Assembly (NCBI RefSeq): GCF_013459645.1
Contig: NZ_CP054861.1
Coordinates: 602,501 to 666,500, forward strand
DNA from: Martelella sp. NC20
Lineage (GTDB): Bacteria > Pseudomonadota > Alphaproteobacteria > Rhizobiales > Rhizobiaceae
DNA length: 64,000 nt
Direction of reading: 5' to 3'
Made by a program: the position numbers and the translations under genes. Of the stretch, positions 3,718-26,003 are shown piece after piece. Within the stretch, counting starts at the first letter, position 1. Each line of letters starts with the position of its first letter. The notes under the pieces are model-generated. The model saw only the letters and a program-made list of their open reading frames with translations, made no database searches and was not told where the DNA came from.

Positions 3718-3827
3718 CTGACCGCTATCAAGAAGGCGATCGAGGGTTTCTTCCCCAAACGCAAGCAATGGTGCCGAATAGCATCGCGCTACAACAAGCT
3801 AAATGTAAGCGCCCTCGGCTTCATCCT
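3718..3827 (+). pseudogene. 3' remnant of an IS5-family-like transposase, cut by the IS630 copy
   Basis: The plus-strand frame reads LTAIKKAIEGFFPKRKQW then CRIASRYNKL and SALGFIL, which resembles the conserved C-terminal region of IS5-group transposases (the E...F..K..RRIATRY pattern). The frame runs straight into the IS630 insertion. If the IS630 copy and one TA are removed, the frame continues a few codons and stops at 4992-4994, inside the 3' end of the oppositely oriented ATPase gene. The upstream part of this transposase is unrecognisable. Similarity is judged by eye. Confidence 0.5.
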
Positions 3828-3828
3828 A

Positions 3829-4977
3829 GTGGATTGATCGGATCAAAGGAGTCCGTTGGTTGATTCCCAACCGCTTTGAGATGTGCGAGTCTGCGGCATG
3901 CGCAGCAACATTTCCTTTACGGTATCTCCCGACGACCGGCAGCGATTGAGCGCCATCGTCGCGGCCCCGAACAGCCCACAGAAGCACGTCTGGCGGGCAC
4001 GTATCATCCTTCTGAGCGACGATGGTCTGGGCACCTCGGCGATCATGGCCGAGACCGGCAAGTCGAAAACCTGTGTGTGGCGCTGGCAGGAGCGGTTCAT
4101 GCATGAGGGCGTCGACGGCCTGCTTCATGACCGGTCCCGGCCACCCGGCAAGGCGCCGGTCCCGCCGGAGCGTGTTGCCGAGATCGTCCGCTTGACGCAG
4201 GAACCGCCGCCGCACGAGGCAACACACTGGACGCTGCGCGCCATGGCCAGGGTCGCCGGCATCGCGGCCTCGACGGTTCAGGCGATCTGGAAGGCTCACG
4301 GTCTCAGCCCGCATCGCTGGAGGCAGTTCAAACTCTCCAACGATCCAGCCTTCGCCGAAAAGCTCACCGACATCGTTGGTCTTTATGTCGACCCGCCGGC
4401 CCATGCCGTGGTGCTGTCGGTTGACGAGAAATCACAGATACAGGCTCTCGACAGAACCCAGCCCGGACTGCCGATGAAGAAGGGCCGTGCCGGCACCATG
4501 ACCCACGATTACAAGCGCCACGGCACCACCACTCTGTTTGCCGCGCTCAACGTGCTGGATGGCACGGTCATCGGCCAGAACATGCAGCGCCACCGCCATC
4601 AGGAGTTCATCCGCTTCCTCAACCGCATCGAGCGCGAGGTGCCGCAAGACAAGGCCATCCACGTCATCCTCGACAATTACGCCGTACACAAAAAGGACAA
4701 GGTCCGCGCCTGGCTCGCCCGCCATCCGCGCTGGACCTTCCACTTCACCCCGACATCCTGCTCCTGGCTCAACGCCGTCGAGGGCTTCTTCGCCAAACTC
4801 ACACGGCGAAGGCTCAAATACGGGGTCTTCCATTCCGTCGTCGATCTGCAGGCCGCAATCAACCGTTTCGTGCGCGAATACAATGCTGACTGTCCCAAGC
4901 CATTTGTCTGGAAAGCCGATCCCGAGGACATCATCACCGCACGAAACCGAGGGTTCCAAACGTTGGAATCAAACCAC
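3829..4977 (+). mobile_element. IS630-family insertion sequence, copy 1
   Basis: An 1149-bp element repeated base for base, as far as I compared, at 24852-26000 in the same orientation. Ends are imperfect inverted repeats: left GTGGATTGAT, right (complement) GTGGTTTGAT. It is flanked by the TA duplication at 3827-3828 and 4978-4979, and the reconstructed empty site is CTAG, the preferred target described for IS630. It carries a single transposase gene. Confidence 0.92.
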
Positions 4978-4980
4978 TAG
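3883..4980 (+). CDS. IS630 family transposase
   Basis: Transposase of 365 residues with an N-terminal helix-turn-helix region (about 35-75, ending [10 protein letters not shown]) and a DDE catalytic domain: Asp181 in SVDEKSQ, Asp264 in ILDNYAVH and Glu300 in NAVEGFF, with 35 residues between the last two. The start at 3883 gives MRVCGM; the in-frame ATG at 3898 (MRSNISF) is an equally plausible start. The stop codon TAG is unusual: its T and A are the target-site duplication and its G is host DNA, so the element supplies no stop of its own. All catalytic residues are intact, so it could be active. Confidence 0.93.
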   Translation: MRVCGMRSNISFTVSPDDRQRLSAIVAAPNSPQKHVWRARIILLSDDGLGTSAIMAETGKSKTCVWRWQERFMHEGVDGLLHDRSRPPGKAPVPPERVAEIVRLTQEPPPHEATHWTLRAMARVAGIAASTVQAIWKAHGLSPHRWRQFKLSNDPAFAEKLTDIVGLYVDPPAHAVVLSVDEKSQIQALDRTQPGLPMKKGRAGTMTHDYKRHGTTTLFAALNVLDGTVIGQNMQRHRHQEFIRFLNRIEREVPQDKAIHVILDNYAVHKKDKVRAWLARHPRWTFHFTPTSCSWLNAVEGFFAKLTRRRLKYGVFHSVVDLQAAINRFVREYNADCPKPFVWKADPEDIITARNRGFQTLESNH

Positions 4981-10707: not shown

Positions 10708-12312
10708 TCATGCGCCGGCGTCCCCCGTTTTTCTCTGTTCGAATTCAGTGCCGAAGATGTTTGACAGGACAGGAGCGGAACTGTCGCGGTGCCGCTCCCA
10801 AAAGTCGAGCCTCTCGGCAAGTCGATCAGTTTTCACGTGTGGTTCGAGATCTGCGATCATGGTTGCGCGTTGACGCGACGCGTAGGCCGGCCAAGTCCCC
10901 AGCGGACCGCTCGGATCGCCGGTTTTGACGAATGCCGCGAGCGCGCTGCTCAGCCCTTTGGCCAGTGCCCGCACCGGCGCATCGCGGACCTCCGACCCCA
11001 GCATATCGGCCACGCCCGTTGCATCGAGATTGTCAAAAAAGAACGGCAGGTCGACGACATGGGCAGCGCCGGTCCGCCCGCCAAGCCCCGGTGATTTCCA
11101 GCCGAATTCATAAACGAAGCCGCGACCACCCGCCGCAGCATGCCTATGGGCGAGGTAACGCACCGGCTCGCCCCATCCATGTTCTGTTGCGATCACGTGT
11201 CCTACGTTTGCAGCATCGCCTCCGACGGCCTTCAACACGGGCGCATAGAGCGCGGCGGCCTCGGACTGTGCATCGGGGTCACGCAGATAAGCAGCAATTG
11301 TCGCTGGCAGAGACCGCTCCGGCGGCGCCCATCCGGTGATCGGGAACAGCCTGTCCTCTTCACTTGTAGAGCCAATCAGGATATCGATGTCACTCCGCTC
11401 GGAGAGCGCGGCGTAGGGATCCGACGCCAACGTAACGCCATCCAGCACAGTGGGAAAGACCCGACGCCCGATGCCGAACATACGCTGCACGGCAAGGATG
11501 CGGAAAATGGAAATGTCGCGAAGCTGGGCCAGCACATCTCCCGCCGGGTCCACCGACAACTGACGCAGGAGGAAATCGGTCGTCTCCCGCGCTTTCCCGA
11601 TTTCAGTCATCATCTCGAGATGTCCGCTTTCCAGGAATACACGGCGAAAAAGGCCGCGTGCGCCGGGTGCAATGAGCAGCGAGGCTACGGAAACTGCCCC
11701 CGCCGAATGCCCGCCGACTGTCACGTGGTCCGGATCTCCACCGAAGGCGGCGATGTTCTGTTGAACCCACTTCAGGGCGAGTGTCTGGTCCTGGATTGCC
11801 TGGTTGCTGTATCGTTCGTCGTAATCGCCAAGGAAGAGCCCGCCAAGATAGCCCAGCCGGTAGTTGACGCTGACAACGACGATACCGTGGTCGCGCGCCA
11901 TGCGAGCGCCATCGGTCCACGAACCGCTGCCCGAACCGCACAGGAATGCGCCGCCGTGGATCCAGAAGAGGACAGGCGCCTTACCGGCAATATCCGGTGT
12001 CCAGATATTCAGATTAAGGCAATCTTCGTCCGACACGCTTTGCGACGCGTAGTAGATAGCCTCGGTCCCGGGAACAGCCATGGGGAGCGGATCGATATCC
12101 TGAGGCGATATCGATCCGAACTGCGATGAATCCACAATACCTTCAGCGACTTCCGCACGTTGAGGCGGCGCAAAGCGAAGCGAGCCAATCGGAGGGGCGC
12201 CATAGCGGACACCACGGAAAATCGAAACGCTATCATCAGTCACGCCAGCGAATGTGCCGCAGGGTGAGGTGGCAATAGGTTGCGTTTCGGAGGCGTGCGC
12301 AGTCGTGGTCAC
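10708..12312 (-). CDS. Type-B carboxylesterase/lipase family protein
   Basis: Serine hydrolase of the alpha/beta-hydrolase fold, about 534 residues. The nucleophile elbow GGHSAGA, the oxyanion segment WIHGGAF, the EDCLNLN motif, the acidic residue region STSEED and the histidine in GAAHVVDLPF make a complete type-B catalytic set. No signal peptide is evident, so a cytoplasmic location is likely. I start it at the GTG of 12312 because GAGAGG precedes it by nine bases; another GTG lies 13 codons upstream (12351). It heads the minus-strand operon with the family-5 importer, so it probably hydrolyses an imported ester, amide or carbamate; the compound is not identifiable. Confidence 0.85.
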   Translation of the reverse strand: MTTTAHASETQPIATSPCGTFAGVTDDSVSIFRGVRYGAPPIGSLRFAPPQRAEVAEGIVDSSQFGSISPQDIDPLPMAVPGTEAIYYASQSVSDEDCLNLNIWTPDIAGKAPVLFWIHGGAFLCGSGSGSWTDGARMARDHGIVVVSVNYRLGYLGGLFLGDYDERYSNQAIQDQTLALKWVQQNIAAFGGDPDHVTVGGHSAGAVSVASLLIAPGARGLFRRVFLESGHLEMMTEIGKARETTDFLLRQLSVDPAGDVLAQLRDISIFRILAVQRMFGIGRRVFPTVLDGVTLASDPYAALSERSDIDILIGSTSEEDRLFPITGWAPPERSLPATIAAYLRDPDAQSEAAALYAPVLKAVGGDAANVGHVIATEHGWGEPVRYLAHRHAAAGGRGFVYEFGWKSPGLGGRTGAAHVVDLPFFFDNLDATGVADMLGSEVRDAPVRALAKGLSSALAAFVKTGDPSGPLGTWPAYASRQRATMIADLEPHVKTDRLAERLDFWERHRDSSAPVLSNIFGTEFEQRKTGDAGA

Positions 12313-16838: not shown

Positions 16839-17174
16839 GCCCCTTTCACCTGAGCATGTCGTCCCGCTTCGTGGGCGAAATGCCCTATTGGCGTTAACTT
16901 TTGCCAGCTCTCTTGGTCATGTCCGATTGGCGGAAGGATACTGATGGCCGGAAACTGAAACGAAAACCGAGCCAAAACCTCCGTTAGGAAAAGCGCCCAA
17001 GCGCTCCGGAAAACTCTGACGACGGGCACGACCAGTAAACTATTGTGTTTGCGCAGTATTTGATCGGCATACGCTACAAACAGAACAGCGTAAGAATTCG
17101 TCGTATCAGTGTAGCTGGTTGCAGGGATCAGGGGAAGAGAGAGCATTACCCCTCACTGACCCCTTTGCGTGGCC
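16839..17174. other. Intergenic stretch without a recognisable gene
   Basis: About 336 bases between the permease remnant and the end of the cobalt transporter gene. A 109-codon minus frame (16817-17146) shows no family features. I see no convincing terminator for the nitrile hydratase operon here. Confidence 0.35.
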
Positions 17175-17927
17175 TCAGGCGTGGTGCTGATCGCGCAACC
17201 TCCCGAGAAAGGCGGCACTCAGCGGACCGAGCAACAGCCAGAAGACAAGGCTGGTGCCGAGAGCAACCAAAATGAAGCGCTGCTCCAGCGCCGCCGGGGC
17301 AAGAGAGACCTCTCCAGCCGCCGGTTGCGGGGCGCCGATCAAATGCGGAGCCACGATCAGTGCAAACGCGGCGACATAAGCCCACCACTCACGCCTCAAT
17401 AGCGAGAGCCCGATGCCACCCGCGGTCGCCACCGCCGTGACAATCCACCATGCCTGTCGTGCAAGCAGCGGACCGGCTGCCGATCCCGGAAGCTCCGGTG
17501 GCAGACCGATCGACGGCATCAGCATGACCGAGGTGAATGCCGCCAGTCCCCACACAATTCCCTCTCGAGCGCTTACCTGCGTGCCGCGCAGCGACATCAG
17601 GGCCGTCAGCACGATGGCAAAACCGATCCCGATGAGAATATTGGCACCGGCCGTATAGAAAAACCTTTCGGCGCCGTCGGCCGGCGCCCAGGCCTCTTCG
17701 TCGTGAGAGTGCCCGGCCGCGGACTGGTGATCGACGGCGACCGCGTCATGCTGATGTTCGACGCCATACTGATGCACAACCTCCGACGCCGCCGGCTCGG
17801 CGGTTTCATACGCCTCCCCCTGGAGGATAAGCGGCGTCGTTCCAAAGATCTGGATGCCGGTCACCACCAGCCCGGCCAAAAGGCCGGACAGCGCGGATGC
17901 GAAAATGATCGATCGCAAGGTGTGCAT
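17175..17927 (-). CDS. cbtA: CbtA family cobalt transporter subunit
   Basis: Predicted inner-membrane cobalt uptake protein, 250 residues. The first span (SIIFASALSGLLAGLVVTG) is followed by the CbtA-typical QIFGTTPLILQGE region, a periplasmic His/Asp-rich loop (HQHDAVAVDH, GHSHDEE) suited to metal capture, and four more hydrophobic segments. I start it at the ATG preceded by AGGAG about eight bases upstream. It follows cbtB by 11 bases, at the 3' end of the nitrile hydratase operon. CbtAB pairs are usually tied to cobalamin synthesis; here the neighbour is a cobalt-type nitrile hydratase, so the metal is likely supplied to that enzyme. Confidence 0.88.
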   Translation of the reverse strand: MHTLRSIIFASALSGLLAGLVVTGIQIFGTTPLILQGEAYETAEPAASEVVHQYGVEHQHDAVAVDHQSAAGHSHDEEAWAPADGAERFFYTAGANILIGIGFAIVLTALMSLRGTQVSAREGIVWGLAAFTSVMLMPSIGLPPELPGSAAGPLLARQAWWIVTAVATAGGIGLSLLRREWWAYVAAFALIVAPHLIGAPQPAAGEVSLAPAALEQRFILVALGTSLVFWLLLGPLSAAFLGRLRDQHHA

Positions 17928-17938
17928 CTTACCTGCTC

Positions 17939-18136
17939 CTAGTGGCAAGGAAACGCGTAGGCGTGACGCGCGTCGTGGGCGGCATTATGCGCGACCGAAA
18001 GCGGGGAGAACCCCACCATGCCCACAATGAACAGGCCGAATGCCAGTGAAATCGTCGCCTGGATGTGGCGGGAAGTGGACGAACTGGTAGCGATCTGGCC
18101 CTGGGCCAGCCTGGATGTCGAAATTTCTGCGGTCAT
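17939..18136 (-). CDS. cbtB: CbtB family cobalt transporter small subunit
   Basis: A 65-residue single-span protein. The span (ATISLAFGLFIVGMVGF) is followed by the family's His-rich C-terminus HNAAHDARHAYAFPCH, thought to bind cobalt. The ATG at 18136 has AGGAGA six bases upstream. Immediately upstream of cbtA with an 11-base gap, and downstream of the nitrile hydratase activator, so translated from the same message. In other genomes cbtBA often sits under a cobalamin riboswitch; no such element is seen here, which fits its use for nitrile hydratase instead. Confidence 0.88.
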   Translation of the reverse strand: MTAEISTSRLAQGQIATSSSTSRHIQATISLAFGLFIVGMVGFSPLSVAHNAAHDARHAYAFPCH

Positions 18137-18224
18137 CGGATCTCTCCTGTGATTTGCTGATCTGGCGACGGGGCAGACCCTCACCCGGAATCGATGGATC
18201 CGGGGCAGGCGCCACGCCGTGAAA

Positions 18225-18701
18225 TTAATGCGATAGTCGTTGCGCCGGTGCACGGCAGGCCTTGTCTACCGTAAGGGGCTTAGCGCTGGCTTCGCCATGG
18301 CTGTGTGAATGGCCGTGATCATGATGATGATCGTGGTCATGTTGGTGACCATTCAGCACCAGCGGTTCGCCAAACCCGCGGTGTTCATCGGCGTGGCGCC
18401 ATTCTTCCTTGCGCGCGATGAGTTCGTCAAATGTTGACAGACCCTTGTCGTTCACCAGGTTTTCCAATGCCGCCAGCCACTGGTTGTAGTAGATCGTGTT
18501 GTAGTCGCTGGAACCGTAGTCCTTTCCAAGGTCGATCTCAGCGCTCAGGTAGTTGACCCATTCGCGCCACTGGAAAAAACCTTTTTCGTGCAGGGCAAGA
18601 ACAATACTGAAGGCCGTTAGTTGCCACGGCTCTGCAAATACGGGCCCCTCCTCGTTGCGGGGCAAATTCGGAATTTCTCGAAATTGCAGTTTCTCATCCA
18701 T
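18225..18701 (-). CDS. Nitrile hydratase accessory protein (activator / cobalt chaperone) with His-rich tail
   Basis: Homologue of the P14K/NhlE-type nitrile hydratase activators, 158 residues. The core (about 15-110) shows the activator pattern FAEPWQLTAFSIVLALHEKG and FQWREWVNYLSAEI, itself related to the N-terminal part of nitrile hydratase beta. The C-terminal tail holds a dense metal-binding run (HQHDHDHHHDHGHSHSH). In Co-type enzymes such proteins load cobalt and promote cysteine oxidation by subunit swapping. ATG at 18701 has AAAGGAGA upstream. It lies between the beta C-terminal gene (44-base gap) and cbtB, which fits a role in receiving imported cobalt. Confidence 0.85.
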   Translation of the reverse strand: MDEKLQFREIPNLPRNEEGPVFAEPWQLTAFSIVLALHEKGFFQWREWVNYLSAEIDLGKDYGSSDYNTIYYNQWLAALENLVNDKGLSTFDELIARKEEWRHADEHRGFGEPLVLNGHQHDHDHHHDHGHSHSHGEASAKPLTVDKACRAPAQRLSH

Positions 18702-18745
18702 CGATATCTCCTTTCCCTGGCATCTTGCGGGTATCGAAACCCGGA

Positions 18746-19099
18746 TCAGGCGTGCCGCATGTAGTCGTCCCAGATGTCAGCATACAGCCGGTCGGACGGA
18801 TGTCCGGCATCACCCCAGACTTCCTGCGCCGTGAACGTAACCGTATATACGTGCTGCGGCTTGGGTCCCTTCCTGTGGGCGCTGGTGTCGGGAAACACGA
18901 ACACACCATGATCGAATGTTACAGTTCCGACCTTGCCCTTGATGTAGGACGGCAGGCGATTATGCGTTGGCGCGTTAACCTCCAGAACGACGACTTTGTC
19001 GCCTTCTTTGAACTTGGCAGGGATGGGCTCGTCGACGCGTGCCGGATCACCAGTTGCAAGGACGATAGGCATCATTTCGACTGTTACCTTGGTAATCAT
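18746..19099 (-). CDS. Nitrile hydratase beta subunit, C-terminal half as a separate protein
   Basis: A 117-residue protein matching the SH3-like C-terminal domain of nitrile hydratase beta: FKEGDKVVVL, then HNRLPSYIKGKVG where the Arg corresponds to the second conserved Arg that contacts the oxidised metal-site cysteines, and YTVTFTAQEVWGD near the end. Its ATG overlaps the stop of the N-terminal half gene by ATGA, so the two halves are translationally coupled. This split is known from toyocamycin nitrile hydratase and from thiocyanate hydrolase, so the arrangement is not by itself a frameshift. Confidence 0.85.
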   Translation of the reverse strand: MITKVTVEMMPIVLATGDPARVDEPIPAKFKEGDKVVVLEVNAPTHNRLPSYIKGKVGTVTFDHGVFVFPDTSAHRKGPKPQHVYTVTFTAQEVWGDAGHPSDRLYADIWDDYMRHA

Positions 19100-19410
19100 G
19101 CCACCTTCTCCTTCATAAGCTGCCTGTGACGCGCATCAACTTCCTCACGGGTGACTACACCCACGTCGATGCAATTCTGCTCCACCGTGCAAAGCCATTT
19201 TTCGTAATAGCTTGACAGCAGGTAATGCGCGGGTTTCATCGTCTCAATGGGACGCCTGAACTGATCTACGTTGAAGACCCCCGCACCAAAACAGGCGATC
19301 ATCATTGCAAGCATCCGGCTTTCCCACTCCTCGTGGAAATATGGCTCATTCTGTTCGACGACAACGGGCCCAAAACCGTGCTTACCGCCGATATCGTGAA
19401 TTCCGTTCAT
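19096..19410 (-). CDS. Nitrile hydratase beta subunit, N-terminal half as a separate protein
   Basis: A 104-residue protein beginning MNGIHDIGGKHGFG, the signature start of nitrile hydratase beta subunits, and carrying Arg52 in FNVDQFRR at the position of the catalytically important beta Arg52. Typical beta subunits are about 220 residues; this gene plus the next (117 residues) together make that length. The ATG at 19410 follows AAAGGAAGGGG. It lies 15 bases downstream of alpha. The order alpha, beta-N, beta-C differs from common alpha/beta or beta/alpha two-gene operons and makes a three-subunit enzyme likely. Confidence 0.87.
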   Translation of the reverse strand: MNGIHDIGGKHGFGPVVVEQNEPYFHEEWESRMLAMMIACFGAGVFNVDQFRRPIETMKPAHYLLSSYYEKWLCTVEQNCIDVGVVTREEVDARHRQLMKEKVA

Positions 19411-19425
19411 CTAATTCCCCTTCCT

Positions 19426-20031
19426 TTATTTTCCCGGCGCCAGTGCCAGACCGGTGCCAATCATAGAATCGCGTGTGACCAGTTCGGCCAGTTGAGACTC
19501 GCTGAAATTTTCGGTTCCGGCGGGACGCATCGGCATGACCAGGTAGCGTAACTCGGCAGTGCTGTCCCAGACGCGAACTTCCACGTCATCAGCTATCTCG
19601 AGGCCAAATTCCCGCAGCACCGCGCGGGGCTCGATCACGACGCGAGCCCGGTACGGAGCCGACTTAAACCAGATCGGGGGAAGTCCGAGGGTTGGCCACG
19701 GGTAGCAGGAGCACAGGGTGCAAACGACGACATTGTGAACGGTCGGCGTGTTCTCGATCACGACCATATTCTCACCCTGCACACCCGAGTAGCCCAGGCT
19801 CTTGATCGCTGCTGAACCGTCTTTCATGAGCCACTTTTTGTATTCGGGGTCGACCCAGGCCTTGGCAATCACCTTCGCGCCGTTCTTCGGCCCGATTCGG
19901 GTTTCGAAGGCTTCGACAAGCAGGTCGAGCGATTTCGGGTCAATCGCCCCCTTTTCCGCTAAAAGGGATTCCAGGGCTTTCACTCTCAGACCAACATCGG
20001 GAATGAGAACATTCTCTTGCGCTTGTGCCAT
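19426..20031 (-). CDS. Nitrile hydratase alpha subunit, cobalt type
   Basis: Catalytic metal-binding subunit, 201 residues, converting nitriles to amides (or, in the related thiocyanate hydrolase, thiocyanate to carbonyl sulfide and ammonia). The metal claw is [11 protein letters not shown], with Cys104, Cys107 and Cys109; Thr105 at the variable position marks the non-corrin cobalt class (iron enzymes have Ser). Flanking segments [15 protein letters not shown] and the [13 protein letters not shown] region are family hallmarks. The ATG at 20031 follows AAGGAGG. Cobalt type agrees with the cbtBA genes in the same operon. Separation of nitrile hydratase from thiocyanate hydrolase is not possible from motifs alone, though the amide sensor and formamidase next door favour nitrile/amide. 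Confidence 0.92.
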
Positions 20032-20082
20032 TTTATGCCTCCTTGAGGTTTTGGCTGCTTAATTCAGGTTCTGCCGATCGGG

Positions 20083-20613
20083 TTATGCGGTTGCGGCTTC
20101 CGGCTTGGTCAGGAAGGCCGCGAACTTGGCGGACGCGAAACCGAACAATGCCCCGAGCCACATGGAAATCGGAACCACGATCACCGCGTTGTCCAGGCTG
20201 ACCGATGTCATAACGCCGAGATCCAGCTTGCCCTGAGTTTGTAGGAGAAACGCGAAAGTGCAAGCATATCCGTATGTAGTGCCGGGCACTGAAACGAGCG
20301 CCGGAATCTGCGAGGACATGATGTAGAAGACAACGGTTATCAGGACGACCACTCCCGCCCAGACATTGGGCGTCAACACATCGCTGAGCGGGATTGTCAG
20401 GATCATCAGGGCGCCGACCCAGCCGACGACCGATCCGAAAAGGTTGGAAATCATCGTGCTCTTCAGGGCGGCGGCGTCACCGCCGGAATGAAAAAAACAA
20501 GCCCATGCCACGAAGGCGGCCCACACCAGAATCGTGCCCGCCGTAAGAAAGAACCAGGTGCAGACCGCACCAAGAATTCCCACACTCAAAGCTGTCGCCA
20601 GTACCGTTCCCAT
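20083..20613 (-). CDS. DUF1097 family inner membrane protein
   Basis: A 176-residue membrane protein with about five to six hydrophobic segments, resembling the DUF1097/YcdZ family (VWAAFVAWACFFHSGG and the central GYACTFAFLL). First gene of the nitrile hydratase operon; ATG at 20613 with AGGGGAG just upstream. It starts 18 bases after the leader's terminator, so it is the first gene exposed to antitermination. In the Pseudomonas amidase operon the membrane protein AmiS occupies a comparable place; a channel for nitriles, amides or ammonia is therefore a fair guess, but the family has no established function that I can apply. Confidence 0.75.
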   Translation of the reverse strand: MGTVLATALSVGILGAVCTWFFLTAGTILVWAAFVAWACFFHSGGDAAALKSTMISNLFGSVVGWVGALMILTIPLSDVLTPNVWAGVVVLITVVFYIMSSQIPALVSVPGTTYGYACTFAFLLQTQGKLDLGVMTSVSLDNAVIVVPISMWLGALFGFASAKFAAFLTKPEAATA

Positions 20614-20630
20614 CGATCTCCCCTATGACC

Positions 20631-20669
20631 AAAAAAAAAGCCCAACCGCTGTTGCCAGCGATTGGGCTT
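20631..20669 (-). terminator. Intrinsic terminator in the leader of the nitrile hydratase operon
   Basis: On the minus strand, AAGCCCAA-CGCTG pairs with CAGCG-TTGGGCTT around a GCAA loop (one mismatch or wobble), followed by nine T residues. It ends only 18 bases before the first gene of the operon and after the promoter, so it must act as an attenuator, not as the end of another gene. Confidence 0.85.
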
Positions 20670-20679
20670 CGTTGCCTAA
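20662..20679 (-). promoter_or_regulatory. Alternative hairpin (candidate AmiR/ANTAR antitermination site)
   Basis: The minus-strand leader can fold TTAGGC-AACGAA-GCCCAA: six-base loop AACGAA with A at position 1 and G at position 4, the identities required in ANTAR target RNAs. Its 3' arm GCCCAA is also the 5' arm of the terminator, so the two structures exclude each other. A matching upstream (first) hairpin with the same loop rule was not found. Confidence 0.55.
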
Positions 20680-20765
20680 CTTGCGCGGCGCCTGAGTGGT
20701 GCCCTGCAAATCTATTTTCCCGAAAAACCGCCGCTTAAGTGCGACCTCTTCGGATTGAATGAATC

Positions 20766-20795
20766 ATCATAGATACAGGAATTGTGAATTGTCAA
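20766..20795 (-). promoter_or_regulatory. Sigma70-type promoter of the nitrile hydratase operon
   Basis: Reading the minus strand, TTGACA (20795-20790) and TATGAT (20771-20766) are separated by 18 bases in an AT-rich stretch. Transcription would start near 20758 and give a leader of about 145 bases containing the two competing hairpins. Confidence 0.65.
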
Positions 20796-20892
20796 TGAGG
20801 ACAGAATAAATTTTTATATAACGCTATCACTCTGTAATAACATATGATTTTACTAGGCCAATGACTGGCAGAGACATGGATGCAGGAATTCA

Positions 20893-21198
20893 ATGCCCCA
20901 CCCGGAGTTCCGCTGGCGCGCTGAAATTAATGCGATCGAGTTCCGACCCTGCGGACATCGGGGCAGTTGCGTGGTGCACAAACTCGCAATCAGAACGATC
21001 GTGGGATTCAGCCCTGACGCACAAGACTGCCTGGCATTTTCGCGGTCCCACTCCGACGCCCTGGTTCGCGCCGCGTCGGCCAAGATCGCCGATGGGCACA
21101 TCCCCGTCGACAAAAGCTTCAATCTAAACAGCCGCGAGATCAGGGCCGCGATTTCGCGGTCGCCAAGGAAAAGTGACGCCGGTAAAACATGCAGTTGA
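20893..21198 (+). CDS. Small hypothetical protein (101 residues)
   Basis: An open frame with ATG preceded by AGGAA five bases upstream, between the two divergent operons. The sequence looks protein-like: MPHPEFRWRAEINAIEFRPC, a middle CVVHKLAIRTIVG and a C-terminal ASAKIADGHIPVDKSFNLN then REIRAAI. The C-terminal A..K...G......LN..DIR pattern recalls DUF1488-type small proteins, but I cannot assign it. It reads in the same direction as amiC and ends at a 15-bp palindrome (21191-21205), so it may share the amiC transcript and be affected by the same regulation. It could also be a chance frame. Confidence 0.45.
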   Translation: MPHPEFRWRAEINAIEFRPCGHRGSCVVHKLAIRTIVGFSPDAQDCLAFSRSHSDALVRAASAKIADGHIPVDKSFNLNSREIRAAISRSPRKSDAGKTCS

Positions 21199-21301
21199 CA
21201 ACTGCGGCGAATTGAGAAACCATGATTCGAACTTTCGACCAAGCAATGGCTTGGGAGTGGCGAGACACAAATAGGGTGGCGCGGCATCTGCCGGTCACTG
21301 C

Positions 21302-21347
21302 GGCGATGAAGCCCTGAAGGCCGGAAGGCCTTTGGGGCTTTTTGTTT
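21302..21347 (+). promoter_or_regulatory. amiC leader: terminator with competing hairpin
   Basis: GAAGCCCTGAAGGCC pairs with GGCCTTTGGGGCTTT around a GGAA loop, followed by TGTTTT: an intrinsic terminator (21308-21347) only 26 bases before the AmiC gene. Its 5' arm also forms GGC-GATGAA-GCC (21302-21313), the same shape and near-same sequence as the hairpin before the nitrile hydratase operon (shared pattern GGCRAYGAAGCCC). Loop position 4 is G, but position 1 is G instead of A. Confidence 0.6.
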
Positions 21348-21373
21348 TGCTGGTGTATTGGGACGAAGCGGAG

Positions 21374-22573
21374 ATGCATACACGGACAAAGATGCCGAAG
21401 ATCGAAATCGGAGTGCTTTTTTCGACCAGCGGACCCTACAGCGCGGTGGGCGTTGAGATGCTTGCCGGGGCATTGATGGGGATCGAAGAAGTCAACCGGT
21501 CAGGCGAATTCGAGTTCGAACTGGCGCCGACGATCAGGGATCCTGGTGGCGATGCGGTCAGTTATGCCACGTTAGGCAGGGAGATATTGAGTCTCGGAGC
21601 CGTAAAACACGTGATCGGCTGCTACACTTCCTGGAGCAGGAAGGAAATCATACCGGTCATCGAGAAATACGACGCGCTGCTTTGGTATCCCTCGCACTAC
21701 GAAGGGTTCGAGAGCTGCGCCAACACGATATATATCGGCGCCCCACCCAACCAGCACATCGTTCCGCTGGCCCGCTACATGATCCAGAACCACGGCGCAA
21801 ACGCCTATTGCTGCGGCTCCAATTACATCTGGCCGTGGGAAAACAACCGCGTCATGCGTGCCATGTTGAATGCGGCAGGCGGCGATGTGCTGGCGGAGAA
21901 ATACCTGCCCATCGGCTCAACAGATGTCGATGGGTTCTTCGATGACATAAGACGGATGAAGCCGGACTTCATCTTCAATACGCTGATCGGCGAATCCAGC
22001 TACGAGTTCTTCAGGAAATACCATGAGGTGGGCCTCTCTGATCCCACCTTCCGGCCAGAGACCACCCCCATTGTAAGCTGCAGCCTTTCGGAACCCGAAT
22101 TGCTTCAGATCGGCGGTTTGGCGGCGGTTGGTCACATCGCCTCCAGCGTCTATTTCGAAACGATCGACAGTCAAGTCAACCGCAGTTTCATCCAGCGCTA
22201 CAGAAATCGCTTCGGTTCGGGTCGGGTCACTTCAGCTGACGCTGAGGCTTCCTACAATTCCGTGACCTTGCTCGCGCAGGCGATACATCGGGCCGGCAGC
22301 GCGGAAATCGACGCGGTGCGCGGTGCATTGTCTGCCATCACTCTGGATGCGCCACAGGGTCCGATCTGGGTCGATCCCGACAACAATCATTGCTACCTGA
22401 CACCGCGCCTGGCGCGATCGGCCAAGAATGCGAGCTTCGATATTCTGGAAACCGAATCGGCGCCGGTCAAACCGGATCCCTACCTATTGTCCCTGCGTCA
22501 GCCGGTAGCCAACGACCCGCTCGACATCTCGACCGGGTTCAGGTCAACCTCGCTTCCGGTGAGCTGGCAATGA
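21374..22573 (+). CDS. amiC: AmiC-type amide-binding sensor (Peripla_BP_6 fold), negative regulator
   Basis: Resembles Pseudomonas AmiC throughout, about 399 residues: IGVLFSTSGPYSAVG at the start, VIGCYTSWSRKEIIPV, LLWYPSHYEGFE, IYIGAPPNQH and near the C-terminus DAPQGPIWVDPDNNH and KPDPYLL. No signal peptide is present, so it acts in the cytoplasm, as AmiC does, holding AmiR inactive until a short amide binds. I start it at the ATG of MHTRTKMPK; MPKIEIG at 21392 is the alternative. It overlaps amiR by ATGA. The gene begins downstream of a terminator with a competing hairpin, suggesting that the system controls its own synthesis. Confidence 0.88.
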   Translation: MHTRTKMPKIEIGVLFSTSGPYSAVGVEMLAGALMGIEEVNRSGEFEFELAPTIRDPGGDAVSYATLGREILSLGAVKHVIGCYTSWSRKEIIPVIEKYDALLWYPSHYEGFESCANTIYIGAPPNQHIVPLARYMIQNHGANAYCCGSNYIWPWENNRVMRAMLNAAGGDVLAEKYLPIGSTDVDGFFDDIRRMKPDFIFNTLIGESSYEFFRKYHEVGLSDPTFRPETTPIVSCSLSEPELLQIGGLAAVGHIASSVYFETIDSQVNRSFIQRYRNRFGSGRVTSADAEASYNSVTLLAQAIHRAGSAEIDAVRGALSAITLDAPQGPIWVDPDNNHCYLTPRLARSAKNASFDILETESAPVKPDPYLLSLRQPVANDPLDISTGFRSTSLPVSWQ

Positions 22574-23214
22574 GAACCCATTTGCCGAATTTCTCATCGC
22601 TGAAGGCCCTGATACTTCTCACCAGGGACGCCAACCGGGACAATTTGCAGGCCCAGCTTAAGCGCCTGAACCTCGAGGTCGACGTCCAGTGGCCTCCGAT
22701 TCCTAGCACCGAACACCTGCACCATGTCGTCTTTTTCGACGTGGACCGGGGTTATGATGGCATGTTCAACTGGCCTGCTGGCGAGCCGCCCGTTCCGCTG
22801 ATAGCGATTGTTGGTTCCGAGGCACCAGGCCGGCTTGAATGGGCGCTGAGCCAGAAACCATCTTCCCATCTGCTGAAGCCGATCGGATCGAGCGGCGTGT
22901 TCCATGCACTCTTCGTGGCGTTCTCGAATTTCGCGGAGTCCGCCCGCGCGAGAGTCGAGATCGAAGAACTGAACGAGCGCATCAGGTGTCGCCCAATTGT
23001 CGTGCGCACCATCCTCAAATTGATGGAGGTGCACGAAATAGGAGACGACGAGGCATTCAGGTTTTTACGCGACCTCAGCATGAAACAGCAGATGAGTATC
23101 GAGGAGATGAGCCACGAAATTCTGTCAAAATCTGAATTGAATATCAGCAATACCCAGAATTCGTTGCCGCCGAGGTTACGAAACGGGCCGGAAACATCGA
23201 CCCGAATGAAATAG
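22570..23214 (+). CDS. amiR: AmiR-type ANTAR-domain transcription antiterminator
   Basis: A 214-residue RNA-binding regulator. Residues 8-125 form a receiver-like domain (LKALILLTRD, HHVVFFDVDRG, SSHLLKPIG) without the usual phosphoacceptor arrangement, as in AmiR; residues about 140-195 form the coiled helix and ANTAR domain (IEELNERI, RTILKLMEVH, FLRDLSMKQQMSIEEMSHEIL). In Pseudomonas the AmiC-AmiR complex releases AmiR when amide binds, and AmiR then prevents termination in the leader of the amidase operon. Start overlaps amiC by four bases. The last 25 residues look unlike a family C-terminus, while another frame here looks protein-like, so a frameshift near 23133-23157 is possible. Confidence 0.88.
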   Translation: MRTHLPNFSSLKALILLTRDANRDNLQAQLKRLNLEVDVQWPPIPSTEHLHHVVFFDVDRGYDGMFNWPAGEPPVPLIAIVGSEAPGRLEWALSQKPSSHLLKPIGSSGVFHALFVAFSNFAESARARVEIEELNERIRCRPIVVRTILKLMEVHEIGDDEAFRFLRDLSMKQQMSIEEMSHEILSKSELNISNTQNSLPPRLRNGPETSTRMK

Positions 23215-23306
23215 CGAAACTGGCTGAACAGGAACTTCAGCCCACAGCGTACGCGCTGCGGGAGGGGAAGATCTGTGCCCTAAAGGAGGAAAGCAATGAA
23301 CAATAA
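23136..23306 (+). other. Protein-like alternative frame overlapping the end of amiR
   Basis: From 23136 a second frame is open and reads EYQQYPEFVAAEVTKRAG, NIDPNEIAKLAEQEL and ALREGKICALKEE, ending at a TAA (23304-23306) that overlaps the formamidase ATG. The composition is natural and the stop is placed as expected for operon coupling. Either the true AmiR C-terminus lies in this frame (one frameshift near 23133) or a small separate gene is here. It has no start codon with a ribosome site that I can see. Confidence 0.35.
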
Positions 23307-24336
23307 TCCAACAACTCGAGTCATTACCCCGTTTCCTCATGAGTGGATCGCTGGCTCACTTCTTGCCCGACGCAGCGTCGCCGGAGGCGCCGGTACCCAT
23401 ACGCATCATCTGTCCGAGGAAGTACAGGGCACCTATCACTACACGATGGGTCCATATTCCGATCCAGTCCTGCATGTTAAGCCGGGCGATCGGATTGTCG
23501 TCGAGACGCGCGACGCGTTCGAAGGCGCAATTAAGAGTGAGAGCGACAAGCCCAAGGATAAATTGCGCATGCCGTTTCTCAATCCACAAAACGGGCCGAT
23601 AATGGTCGAAGGCGCTGAGAAGGGCGACGCACTGGCCGTCTATATCGAATCAATGGTGCCGCGTGGCGAGAACCCACTGGGCACTTGCTGCATGATCGAA
23701 GAGTTTGGCGCTCTTACCGGCACAGCCTATACGGCGACCCTGAATGATCCGCTGCCCGAGATTGTACGCAAGATCCACCTGGACGAAAGCCATGTTTATT
23801 GGAGCGACAGGATCACTCTACCCTACAAACCGCATATCGGTACTCTGAGCTGTTCTCCTGAGATAGATTCAATAAATTCGCTAACGCCCGACAATCACGG
23901 CGGCAATATGGACCTGCCCGACATGGGGCCGGGCACGGTCACCTATTTACCTGTTCGTTCGCCCGGCGCGCGTCTGTTCATCGGCGACGCGCATGCCTGC
24001 CAGGGAGACGGAGAGGTTTGTGGCGTGGCGGTCGAGTTTCCGACCACAACCACAATCAGGGTCGACCTGATCAAAGGTTGGACGATCGACTGGCCACGCA
24101 TGGAGACATCTGAACTGATCATGGGTATTGGCAGCGCTCGCCCACTTGAGGACGCCACCCGCATCGCCTATCGCGAACTTATCCGCTGGATGGTTGCCGA
24201 TTACGGATTCGAAAAGTGGGATGCCTACATGCTGCTCAGCCAGTGCGGGATCGTCCGGCTGGGCAACTTTGTCGATCCCAAATACACGGTTGGAGCAGCG
24301 GTGCGCAAACGCCTCATTGCGGAGCAAGCCAATTGA
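23296..24336 (+). CDS. Formamidase/acetamidase family hydrolase
   Basis: Amide hydrolase of the FmdA/AmdA family, 346 residues, releasing ammonia from short amides in the cytoplasm. Family segments include THTHHLSEEVQGTYHYTMGP, KPGDRIVVETRDAFEGAI, a GPIMVEGAEKGD loop and the metal/catalytic stretch SPGARLFIGDAHACQGDGEVCG. The ATG has a near-perfect AAAGGAGG nine bases upstream. It is 81 bases after amiR on the same strand and completes the pathway begun by nitrile hydratase: nitrile to amide to acid and ammonia. Length is a little under the roughly 400 residues of some members but typical of the short subgroup. Confidence 0.88.
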   Translation: MNNNPTTRVITPFPHEWIAGSLLARRSVAGGAGTHTHHLSEEVQGTYHYTMGPYSDPVLHVKPGDRIVVETRDAFEGAIKSESDKPKDKLRMPFLNPQNGPIMVEGAEKGDALAVYIESMVPRGENPLGTCCMIEEFGALTGTAYTATLNDPLPEIVRKIHLDESHVYWSDRITLPYKPHIGTLSCSPEIDSINSLTPDNHGGNMDLPDMGPGTVTYLPVRSPGARLFIGDAHACQGDGEVCGVAVEFPTTTTIRVDLIKGWTIDWPRMETSELIMGIGSARPLEDATRIAYRELIRWMVADYGFEKWDAYMLLSQCGIVRLGNFVDPKYTVGAAVRKRLIAEQAN

Positions 24337-24360
24337 TGAATCAGGTTCCGCAGGGCGACG

Positions 24361-24785: not shown

Positions 24786-24851
24786 GAGAGTCGGTCCAGA
24801 AAGTTATTCTTTATGAACAAATCCTTCGTAGCATGAGGCGTATAGACGCTA

Positions 24852-26000
24852 GTGGATTGATCGGATCAAAGGAGTCCGTTGGTTGATTCCCAACCGCTTT
24901 GAGATGTGCGAGTCTGCGGCATGCGCAGCAACATTTCCTTTACGGTATCTCCCGACGACCGGCAGCGATTGAGCGCCATCGTCGCGGCCCCGAACAGCCC
25001 ACAGAAGCACGTCTGGCGGGCACGTATCATCCTTCTGAGCGACGATGGTCTGGGCACCTCGGCGATCATGGCCGAGACCGGCAAGTCGAAAACCTGTGTG
25101 TGGCGCTGGCAGGAGCGGTTCATGCATGAGGGCGTCGACGGCCTGCTTCATGACCGGTCCCGGCCACCCGGCAAGGCGCCGGTCCCGCCGGAGCGTGTTG
25201 CCGAGATCGTCCGCTTGACGCAGGAACCGCCGCCGCACGAGGCAACACACTGGACGCTGCGCGCCATGGCCAGGGTCGCCGGCATCGCGGCCTCGACGGT
25301 TCAGGCGATCTGGAAGGCTCACGGTCTCAGCCCGCATCGCTGGAGGCAGTTCAAACTCTCCAACGATCCAGCCTTCGCCGAAAAGCTCACCGACATCGTT
25401 GGTCTTTATGTCGACCCGCCGGCCCATGCCGTGGTGCTGTCGGTTGACGAGAAATCACAGATACAGGCTCTCGACAGAACCCAGCCCGGACTGCCGATGA
25501 AGAAGGGCCGTGCCGGCACCATGACCCACGATTACAAGCGCCACGGCACCACCACTCTGTTTGCCGCGCTCAACGTGCTGGATGGCACGGTCATCGGCCA
25601 GAACATGCAGCGCCACCGCCATCAGGAGTTCATCCGCTTCCTCAACCGCATCGAGCGCGAGGTGCCGCAAGACAAGGCCATCCACGTCATCCTCGACAAT
25701 TACGCCGTACACAAAAAGGACAAGGTCCGCGCCTGGCTCGCCCGCCATCCGCGCTGGACCTTCCACTTCACCCCGACATCCTGCTCCTGGCTCAACGCCG
25801 TCGAGGGCTTCTTCGCCAAACTCACACGGCGAAGGCTCAAATACGGGGTCTTCCATTCCGTCGTCGATCTGCAGGCCGCAATCAACCGTTTCGTGCGCGA
25901 ATACAATGCTGACTGTCCCAAGCCATTTGTCTGGAAAGCCGATCCCGAGGACATCATCACCGCACGAAACCGAGGGTTCCAAACGTTGGAATCAAACCAC
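24852..26000 (+). mobile_element. IS630-family insertion sequence, copy 2
   Basis: Same 1149-bp element as at 3829-4977, same orientation, offset exactly 21023 bases. TA duplications lie at 24850-24851 and 26001-26002; the empty site is again CTAG. It is inserted in the 3' part of an IS5-family transposase gene. With copy 1 it brackets about 20 kb of catabolic genes. Confidence 0.92.
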
Positions 26001-26003
26001 TAG
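24906..26003 (+). CDS. IS630 family transposase (second copy)
   Basis: Identical in translation to the copy at 3883-4980: 365 residues, DDE residues Asp181, Asp264 and Glu300, N-terminal helix-turn-helix. Here too the stop codon is TAG made from the duplicated TA plus a host G. Identity of both copies suggests recent transposition or gene conversion. Expression from its own promoter is not evident. Confidence 0.93.

Follow-up and report, generated by a model that had tools for sequence, protein, structure and literature searches.

A candidate AmiR recognition element in the leaders of divergent nitrile hydratase and AmiC–AmiR–amide hydrolase operons of Martelella sp. NC20

Martelella sp. NC20 carries, within a 64,000-nucleotide stretch of contig NZ_CP054861.1 (positions 602,501 to 666,500 of the forward strand; hereafter the window), an island of nitrile and amide genes with a putative AmiC–AmiR antitermination switch, and the leader elements of this switch are the subject of the present analysis. 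The island, at positions 17175–24336 of the window, consists of ten genes in two divergent operons, as the initial annotation of the sequence had described, and each encoded protein scores above a Pfam cut-off in a search of the window proteins. The minus-strand operon, read from 20613 down to 17175, encodes in order a DUF1097 protein, nitrile hydratase alpha, the N-terminal and C-terminal halves of nitrile hydratase beta, an activator, CbtB and CbtA, with intergenic gaps of 51, 15, −4, 44, 91 and 14 bases when CbtB is taken from the ATG at 18133 and CbtA from 17924. The plus-strand operon, at 21374–24336, encodes AmiC, AmiR and an enzyme of the acetamidase/formamidase family. The genes and the limits of the island are as follows; dN/dS is the ratio of non-synonymous to synonymous substitution rates.

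17175–17924, minus strand: CbtA, proposed cobalt transporter subunit (PF09490, TIGR02458)
17939–18133, minus strand: CbtB, proposed cobalt transporter subunit (PF09489, TIGR02459)
18225–18701, minus strand: nitrile hydratase activator or accessory protein with a His-rich C-terminus (TIGR03889, 73.3 bits, cut-off 46)
18746–19099, minus strand: nitrile hydratase beta, C-terminal half, a separate protein (PF02211, 106 bits)
19096–19410, minus strand: nitrile hydratase beta, N-terminal half, a separate protein (PF21006, 126.5 bits)
19426–20031, minus strand: nitrile hydratase alpha, cobalt type, with VCTLCSCY (PF02979, 294.6 bits; TIGR01323; 3qxe, Co-type; dN/dS 0.10)
20083–20613, minus strand: DUF1097 protein, first gene of the minus operon (PF06496, 96.3 bits)
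21374–22573, plus strand: AmiC-like putative cytoplasmic amide sensor (PF13433, Peripla_BP_5, 404 bits; 1pea, 229.7 bits)
22570–23214, plus strand: AmiR, pseudo-receiver AmiR_N (46.4 bits) plus ANTAR (38.5 bits), its start overlapping the amiC stop
23296–24336, plus strand: amide hydrolase of the acetamidase/formamidase family (PF03069, FmdA_AmdA; 5ubu, 564.7 bits)
17130–24360, no strand: limits of the island shared with a second genome (locus L001) at 95–97% identity, with unrelated flanks on both sides

The CTLCSC sequence in the alpha chain is the cobalt motif of nitrile hydratase alpha subunits (PMC2667541), and this motif, a beta subunit and an activator, which together identify a cobalt-type nitrile hydratase, are all present; the best solved relative of the alpha chain, 3qxe, is likewise a Co-type enzyme. 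The activator is assigned to NHase_beta_N in Pfam and to the accessory protein in NCBIfam. The enzyme at the end of the plus operon had been annotated as a formamidase. Its place in the acetamidase/formamidase family holds, and its closest solved structure, 5ubu, is a putative acetamidase/formamidase; against the NCBIfam formamidase model itself it scores 73.8, where the cut-off is 500, and we therefore assign it to the family only. Among the ten genes Pfam reveals no regulators other than AmiC and AmiR, and there is no MarR- or ArsR-like partner beside amiC.

The initial annotation's description of a cytoplasmic protein strongly similar to AmiC stands insofar as no hydrophobic leader peptide is seen when the sequence is judged by eye and the match to Pseudomonas aeruginosa AmiC (1pea) is clear, although 8tg1, an 'Extracellular ligand-binding receptor', scores higher at 281.3 bits. 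Similarity is one of three grounds for assigning the AmiC role, the others being the absence of a signal peptide and the presence of AmiR as partner. Relative to 1pea, the protein has GCYTS for GCYMS, WYPSH for CYPTP and NYIWP for DYIYP. We take these regions of 1pea to be amide contacts; they are partly kept here, and the ligand is therefore probably a small amide, not necessarily acetamide. AmiR, correctly read at the outset as a receiver-like domain followed by ANTAR, aligns with P. aeruginosa AmiR (1qo0 chain D) and with 1s8n, a putative antiterminator. Matched by eye, EutV lying outside the alignment, it has F, R and M residues spaced as are Tyr164, Arg168 and Met172 of EutV, which contact RNA (PMC8934654).

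The two leaders, facing away from one another between DUF1097 and amiC, contain the following features.

20637–20670, minus strand: intrinsic terminator of 15 pairs, overlapping P2, 23 bases before the DUF1097 ATG
20665–20676, minus strand: hairpin P2, candidate AmiR site GGC-AACGAA-GCC (second R1 match, 21.7 bits; see below)
20678–20712, minus strand: upstream hairpin P1, non-canonical with a five-base loop, from RNA folding; stem arms kept and loop altered in L001
20766–20795, minus strand: promoter-like TTGACA-18-TATGAT facing the DUF1097–nitrile hydratase operon, a consensus match only (11 of 12 bases)
21275–21299, plus strand: upstream hairpin P1 with a tetraloop, from RNA folding
21302–21313, plus strand: hairpin P2, candidate AmiR site GGC-GATGAA-GCC (top R1 match, 27.7 bits, E 3.4e-4)
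21308–21341, plus strand: intrinsic terminator of 15 pairs, overlapping P2, 32 bases before the amiC ATG

The presence of a terminator in each leader agrees with the initial annotation, and in the region 20500–21450 as a whole there are seven terminator-like sites where shuffled sequences lead one to expect 1.3. The promoter-like sequence is the sole match of its kind in the same region, with 0.6 expected in shuffles. In both leaders the 5′ base of the terminator can alternatively pair with an upstream GGC, giving the hairpin P2 of three pairs and a six-base loop, and the minus and plus leaders share GGC-RAYGAA-GCCC in the same register relative to the terminator. In nascent RNA ending at P2, folding assigns this hairpin a pair probability of 0.97–0.99 in the minus leader and 0.91–0.92 in the plus leader. 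The full leaders fold into the terminator, with energies of −59.1 (minus) and −59.3 (plus) kcal/mol as against −50.0 and −52.6 kcal/mol with P2 forced, that is, the terminator is favoured in the whole leader by 9.1 and 6.7 kcal/mol, respectively. Sequence and folding together make P2 and the terminator mutually exclusive in both leaders. Known ANTAR targets consist of two hexaloop hairpins, each having A as the first and G as the fourth loop base, of which the second lies inside the terminator (PMC3369931, PMC8164766); according to a later structure, one hexaloop suffices as a minimal ANTAR site (PMC8934654). The minus P2 has at least three pairs, a hexaloop with A1 and G4, and an overlap with the terminator, as expected of an ANTAR site.

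Two other lines of enquiry in these leaders were set aside. Riboswitch control of the cobalt genes was rejected, as no Rfam family reaches its gathering score in the window; a relaxed Rfam scan of 20560–21400 gave one weak antisense-RNA match on the other strand (19.3 bits, cut-off 50). The bare motif GGCRAYGAAGCC, taken out of its terminator context, is not specific, occurring 50 times in the 6.1-Mb genome (26 forward, 24 reverse); its reversed control occurs twice forward and twice in reverse.

Analysis of related genomes provided the means of comparing these leaders with those of other AmiR loci. Of 101 related genomes, that of NC20 included, 42 have an AmiR match at E 0.001, any ANTAR-like protein being counted, and up to 20 kb was read around the better matches. 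Most of the loci read are amiC–amiR operons with an ABC transporter, and many also encode an AmdA- or FmdA-type hydrolase. A GGC-N6-GCC hairpin, mostly at the 5′ base of a terminator, was taken as P2 in 32 of 39 amiC-type leaders, the remaining seven being L079, L088, L105, L107, L109, L124 and L125. A covariance model, R1, was built from 27 of these leaders with the terminator pairs as structure, leaving out L116 and L126, in which the script found no T-run, L119, which lacks a clear terminator, and L104 and L085, whose terminators are long; the window and L001 were excluded. The arms are GGC and GCC in all 27 training leaders, which is no independent finding because the arms were part of the selection; the loop bases are independent, and position 1 is A in 23 leaders and G in four. 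No corresponding model of P1 was made, the MAFFT alignment of the relatives' P1 hairpins having misplaced the stems as judged by eye.

An unfiltered scan of the 64-kb window with R1 returned 24 matches with E up to 10, of which the plus leader is first at 27.7 bits (E 3.4e-4), the minus leader second at 21.7 bits (E 0.0071) and the next 13.6 bits; the E-values are rough. The initial annotation had proposed that one AmiC–AmiR pair serves both operons through their leader RNA, and the ranking of the two leaders at the top by a model derived from other genomes supports this. With a terminator-only model, R2, the plus leader scores 21.2 bits and the minus leader 15.2 bits, the latter falling to third place behind a terminator at 11646–11685 that R1 does not list. 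Inclusion of the hairpin thus adds 6.5 bits to each leader. When the GGC arm and loop were scored at GCC-anchored sites, the minus P2 was matched or beaten by nine of 4292 and the plus P2 by 13 of 4292, themselves included. Across 1.06 Mb, made up of the window and 57 loci each counted once, there are 103 strict terminators, and GGC[AG]N5GC[CT] marks the 5′ base of 14. Eleven of these belong to AmiR-linked leaders, two to the window leaders, and one lies inside an ABC gene (L122).

The initial annotation had named, as an outcome that would speak against it, a consistent tie between homologues of this AmiR and unrelated leaders. This outcome was not borne out. What we find is an R1 match, one per locus at E up to 1, in 36 of 43 ANTAR/AmiR loci: the 27 used in training and nine of the 16 others, with none in seven. 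All nine non-training matches, which include those in L104, L085, L116, L088, L107, L109, L124 and L125, head an AmiR-linked operon; that in L088 falls within the annotated start of an amiC-like gene, before the matched part of the protein. In L107 and L109 the match lies 27 and 35 bases, respectively, upstream of a gene with an amidase signature; this gene is on the other strand from amiC–amiR and heads a divergent operon with transporter genes and, in L109, FmdA as well. These two loci have the layout of the window, with an amidase where the window has nitrile hydratase.

From this evidence we consider it probable that the island is a portable nitrile-to-acid cassette in which both operons are run by product-induced antitermination through AmiR. 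The genes, the terminators, the shared element and its incompatibility with the terminator are read from the DNA; amide binding, AmiR release, RNA binding and read-through are proposed by analogy with the AmiC/AmiR and EutV families. Without amide, AmiR would be kept inactive by AmiC, and transcription of either operon would mostly end at its leader terminator. Once nitrile hydration or an external supply furnished amide, its binding to AmiC would free AmiR, which would then bind the P2 hexaloop, GGC-RAYGAA-GCC, of either leader as it is transcribed. Since one stretch serves P2 as its 3′ arm and the terminator as its 5′ base, the terminator could then not close beside its U-run, and read-through would result. 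From one promoter this would jointly raise nitrile hydratase, the activator and the CbtBA cobalt importer, and from the other AmiC, AmiR and the amide hydrolase, which would degrade the inducer and so end the signal. More tentatively, and with rather less than even confidence, we suggest that the cobalt enzyme, the activator and the importer share one RNA switch under a single product-sensing AmiC–AmiR pair, such that metal uptake would follow the product and not a metal sensor or riboswitch; that the response would be a self-amplifying and self-ending pulse; that the cassette would move as a whole; and that its minus leader may be an ANTAR target newly placed before another operon, by which an amide regulon would reach upstream to nitriles.

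A number of observations weigh against antitermination of both operons by AmiR. The plus P2 has G4 in its loop but G in place of A at position 1, and no further A1/G4 hexaloop besides P2 occurs in 20665–20770 (minus) or 21201–21313 (plus), so the canonical second hairpin is missing; in L116 and L127 such a hexaloop is present further upstream of P2. Of the 27 training leaders, 21 have G at loop position 5 and four at position 4, the position at which it is found in the window. R1 fails to match L065, L079, L105, L119, L121, L122 and L126, seven of the 43 ANTAR/AmiR loci. In a prefiltered R1 search of the whole genome, the plus leader heads the four matches listed and the minus leader is not among them; scoring covered only 150 of 10127 first-look candidates, which may be the reason. 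A terminator following a thrS-like gene (presumably thrS, from a reading by eye) reaches 24.2 bits in the whole genome, above the minus leader. Finally, the minus leader of L001 scores 17.4 bits with R1 (E 0.23), one base of a terminator arm being missing, and the −10 box of its minus operon is TAGGAT.

A negative control, by contrast, speaks for the main reading: no strong R1 match was found before nitrile hydratase in 41 stretches representing 35 distinct places, six having been fetched twice (L036/L110, L037/L111, L038/L112, L039/L113, L040/L114 and L062/L120); 23 of the 35 places span only 1.5 kb on each side, so that leaders further upstream would be missed. Eleven R1 matches occur in these stretches, two of them upstream on the hydratase strand: the best, at 17.3 bits, is 4 kb upstream in L099 and inside an ABC gene, and the other, at 11.8 bits, is 2.5 kb upstream in L114.

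These points bear on three other explanations of the island. The weaker match of the minus leader to R1 (6 bits below the plus leader, and lower still in L001) is what would be expected if AmiR controlled only the amiC–amiR–hydrolase operon and the hydratase terminator were constitutive or answered to another factor. Locus L124 points the same way, for there an amidase–nitrile hydratase operon adjoins an AmiC–AmiR operon, yet the sole strong leader match precedes the transporter operon. Against this, the minus leader has the GGC-RAYGAA-GCCC of the plus leader in the same terminator register, with a score that few GCC-anchored sites attain (the nine of 4292 above), and the Rfam scans offer only the weak other-strand match as a sign of another element; we judge such restricted control to be rather unlikely. 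It would be less likely still that the minus hairpin is a plain upstream terminator, an older transcript end or insulator that is unregulated, with the hairpin resemblance due to chance. Terminators beginning with GCCC do already score with R2, as the 15.2 bits of the minus leader attest, and a plain terminator elsewhere attains 24.2 bits with R1. Nevertheless, the minus terminator has a promoter-like site on one side and the first gene on the other, whose ATG is 23 bases away; the hairpin part lifts this leader above the other window terminator; and the motif is found at only one of the 90 terminators outside the 11 AmiR-linked and two window cases.

The remaining explanation, that insertion sequences recently brought together two functionally uncoupled operons by chance, draws on the identical transposase copies that bracket the segment and on the fact that the linkage recurs in no other genome of three samples. 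We hold it to be just as improbable as the unregulated terminator, in view of the leader element in both operons and of a second genome in which the two operons have been kept together under purifying selection between unrelated flanks. This genome, L001, is a metagenome-assembled contig titled Rhodospirillum sp. Its dN/dS values relative to the window are 0.08–0.47 across all ten genes of both operons; its two leaders retain P2, that of the plus operon with a single change in the loop. An extra segment of ∼1.2 kb, which from its open frame is probably an insertion sequence, separates the two leaders. In NC20 the two transposase copies, at 3826–4980 and 24849–26003, are identical over 1155 bases and point in the same direction; from their Pfam domains we take them to be of IS630 type. 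No hydratase match was found in the 12 same-genus genomes searched, and the island reads as a horizontally acquired cassette.

The search for the same neighbourhood elsewhere, which the initial annotation had advised, was successful in L001 and, in another layout, in L124. In three overlapping genome samples no AmiR match lies within 30 kb of a nitrile hydratase alpha match on one contig, save in the window itself. Both proteins are present, own genome included, in 15 of 101 relatives (E 1e-3), five of 385 genomes of the class (E 1e-20) and 18 of 398 of the phylum (E 1e-8 and 1e-20); these co-occurrence counts were made by hand, and contig breaks in drafts could hide linked cases. L124, found among the plasmid records listed, is a Klebsiella plasmid (NZ_CP065459, 1982–14877) in which an amidase–nitrile hydratase–CbiM-type transporter cluster stands beside urea-type ABC–FmdA–AmiC–AmiR genes, with IS1 between them. 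The closest relative in both AmiR (51% identity) and hydrolase (82%), L065, has no nitrile hydratase nearby; its AmiC is matched over 258 residues only and no leader was recognised.

Several further observations concern the island and its relatives. The segment between the transposase copies, which lie ∼20 kb apart, encodes a peptide-type ABC transporter, a carboxylesterase and oxidoreductase domains as well as the nitrile island, and is a possible composite transposon. The beta subunit is split between two overlapping genes (19096–19410 and 18746–19099, minus strand), and a similar split exists in Aminobacter MSH1 pUSP2. DUF1097 stands with nitrile hydratase and CbtBA both in the window (20083–20613, minus strand) and in L111 (3044–3664, minus strand), two loci whose regulators differ, and is a candidate membrane partner for nitrile or amide or for cobalt; among the papers that name the family, none is about DUF1097 by its title. 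An open frame at 23136–23306 (plus strand), different from those of the neighbouring AmiR and hydrolase genes between which it lies, includes the sequence QYPEFVAAEVTKRAGNIDPNEIAKLAEQELQPTAYALREGKICALKEESNEQ; it is 85% identical over 48 residues in L001 and unmatched in the other loci compared, and is possibly what is left of a lost gene. A second AmiR of NC20 (L079, G000:C1:1573234–1573779), of 41% identity, adjoins an ABC transporter and has no R1 match at E up to 1. Among the ten loci with FmdA of at least 60% identity and a loop that was read, G is at loop position 4 in seven (L116–L119 and L125–L127) and not in L108, L109 and L124, as against position 5 in most other loci; G4 and G5 are perhaps two recognition dialects tracking AmiR clades.

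If antitermination of both operons is correct, ANTAR control would extend from amide hydrolysis to nitrile hydration and metal supply, and the signal acting through the RNA switch would be the amide product, not the nitrile. The hairpin that the window leaders have in common with the relatives' amiC leaders provides a sharp, testable prediction of the AmiR target. Nitrile hydratase serves industry as a biocatalyst (PMC6941271), and a self-contained amide-inducible cassette that also raised cobalt import could for that reason be useful; a Bacillus antiterminator has been used as an expression tool (PMC9604022).

The island shares with the classic AmiC–AmiR system a presumably amide-sensing AmiC, an AmiR with pseudo-receiver and ANTAR domains, and a leader terminator with an overlapping hexaloop hairpin (PMC3369931). 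It differs in having the leader on two divergent operons, one of which encodes a cobalt nitrile hydratase and a proposed cobalt importer, and in its lack of the second A1/G4 hexaloop of the classic dual target. The Alphaproteobacterial amiC–amiR–ABC transporter–AmdA operons and the FmdA–urea-type ABC–AmiC–AmiR operons have the same AmiC, AmiR, hydrolase family and leader element; they differ in their ABC transporter and, in the stretches read, have no nitrile hydratase except beside the Klebsiella operon of L124. Conversely, the amidase–nitrile hydratase–CbtB–CbtA clusters of Aminobacter MSH1 pUSP2 and Pantoea pPag2 have hydratase, activator, CbtB and CbtA in the same order as the window, with two SH3-like genes replacing beta in the former; these stretches have no annotated ANTAR gene and no strong leader match.

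AmiC-like control of a nitrile hydratase is itself not new. Komeda and co-workers reportedly described it in 1996 for NhlC/NhlD of Rhodococcus J1, where a cobalt nitrile hydratase has an amide inducer and a cobalt transporter alongside. The partner there is said to belong to a DNA-binding family, whereas that in the window is an ANTAR RNA-binding protein. We regard the version with an ANTAR partner as real, rare and new, and the novelty claimed by the initial annotation is narrowed to it: ANTAR or antitermination control of nitrile hydratase is not described in the open-licence literature, as judged from titles and the beginnings of abstracts among the matches listed. Neighbourhoods of the other kind, in which the hydratase and its activator adjoin genes for a MarR or ArsR regulator and a substrate-binding-type protein, were seen in L132 (R. 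rhodochrous BX2), L133, L101, L123 and L111. A cobalt transporter and an amidase are also present in L132, L101, L123 and L111, and neither in the stretch of L133 that was read. The AmiC of the window shares only 24–27% identity with the AmiC-like proteins of L101, L111, L123 and L132, and the L133 protein is unmatched at E 1e-5. L111 resembles the window most closely in content, having a split beta, activator, CbtB, CbtA and DUF1097 as well as an amidase; alongside them are a MarR gene and an AmiC-like protein. One enzyme module thus occurs beside two kinds of regulator, one with a DNA-binding and the other with an RNA-binding partner.

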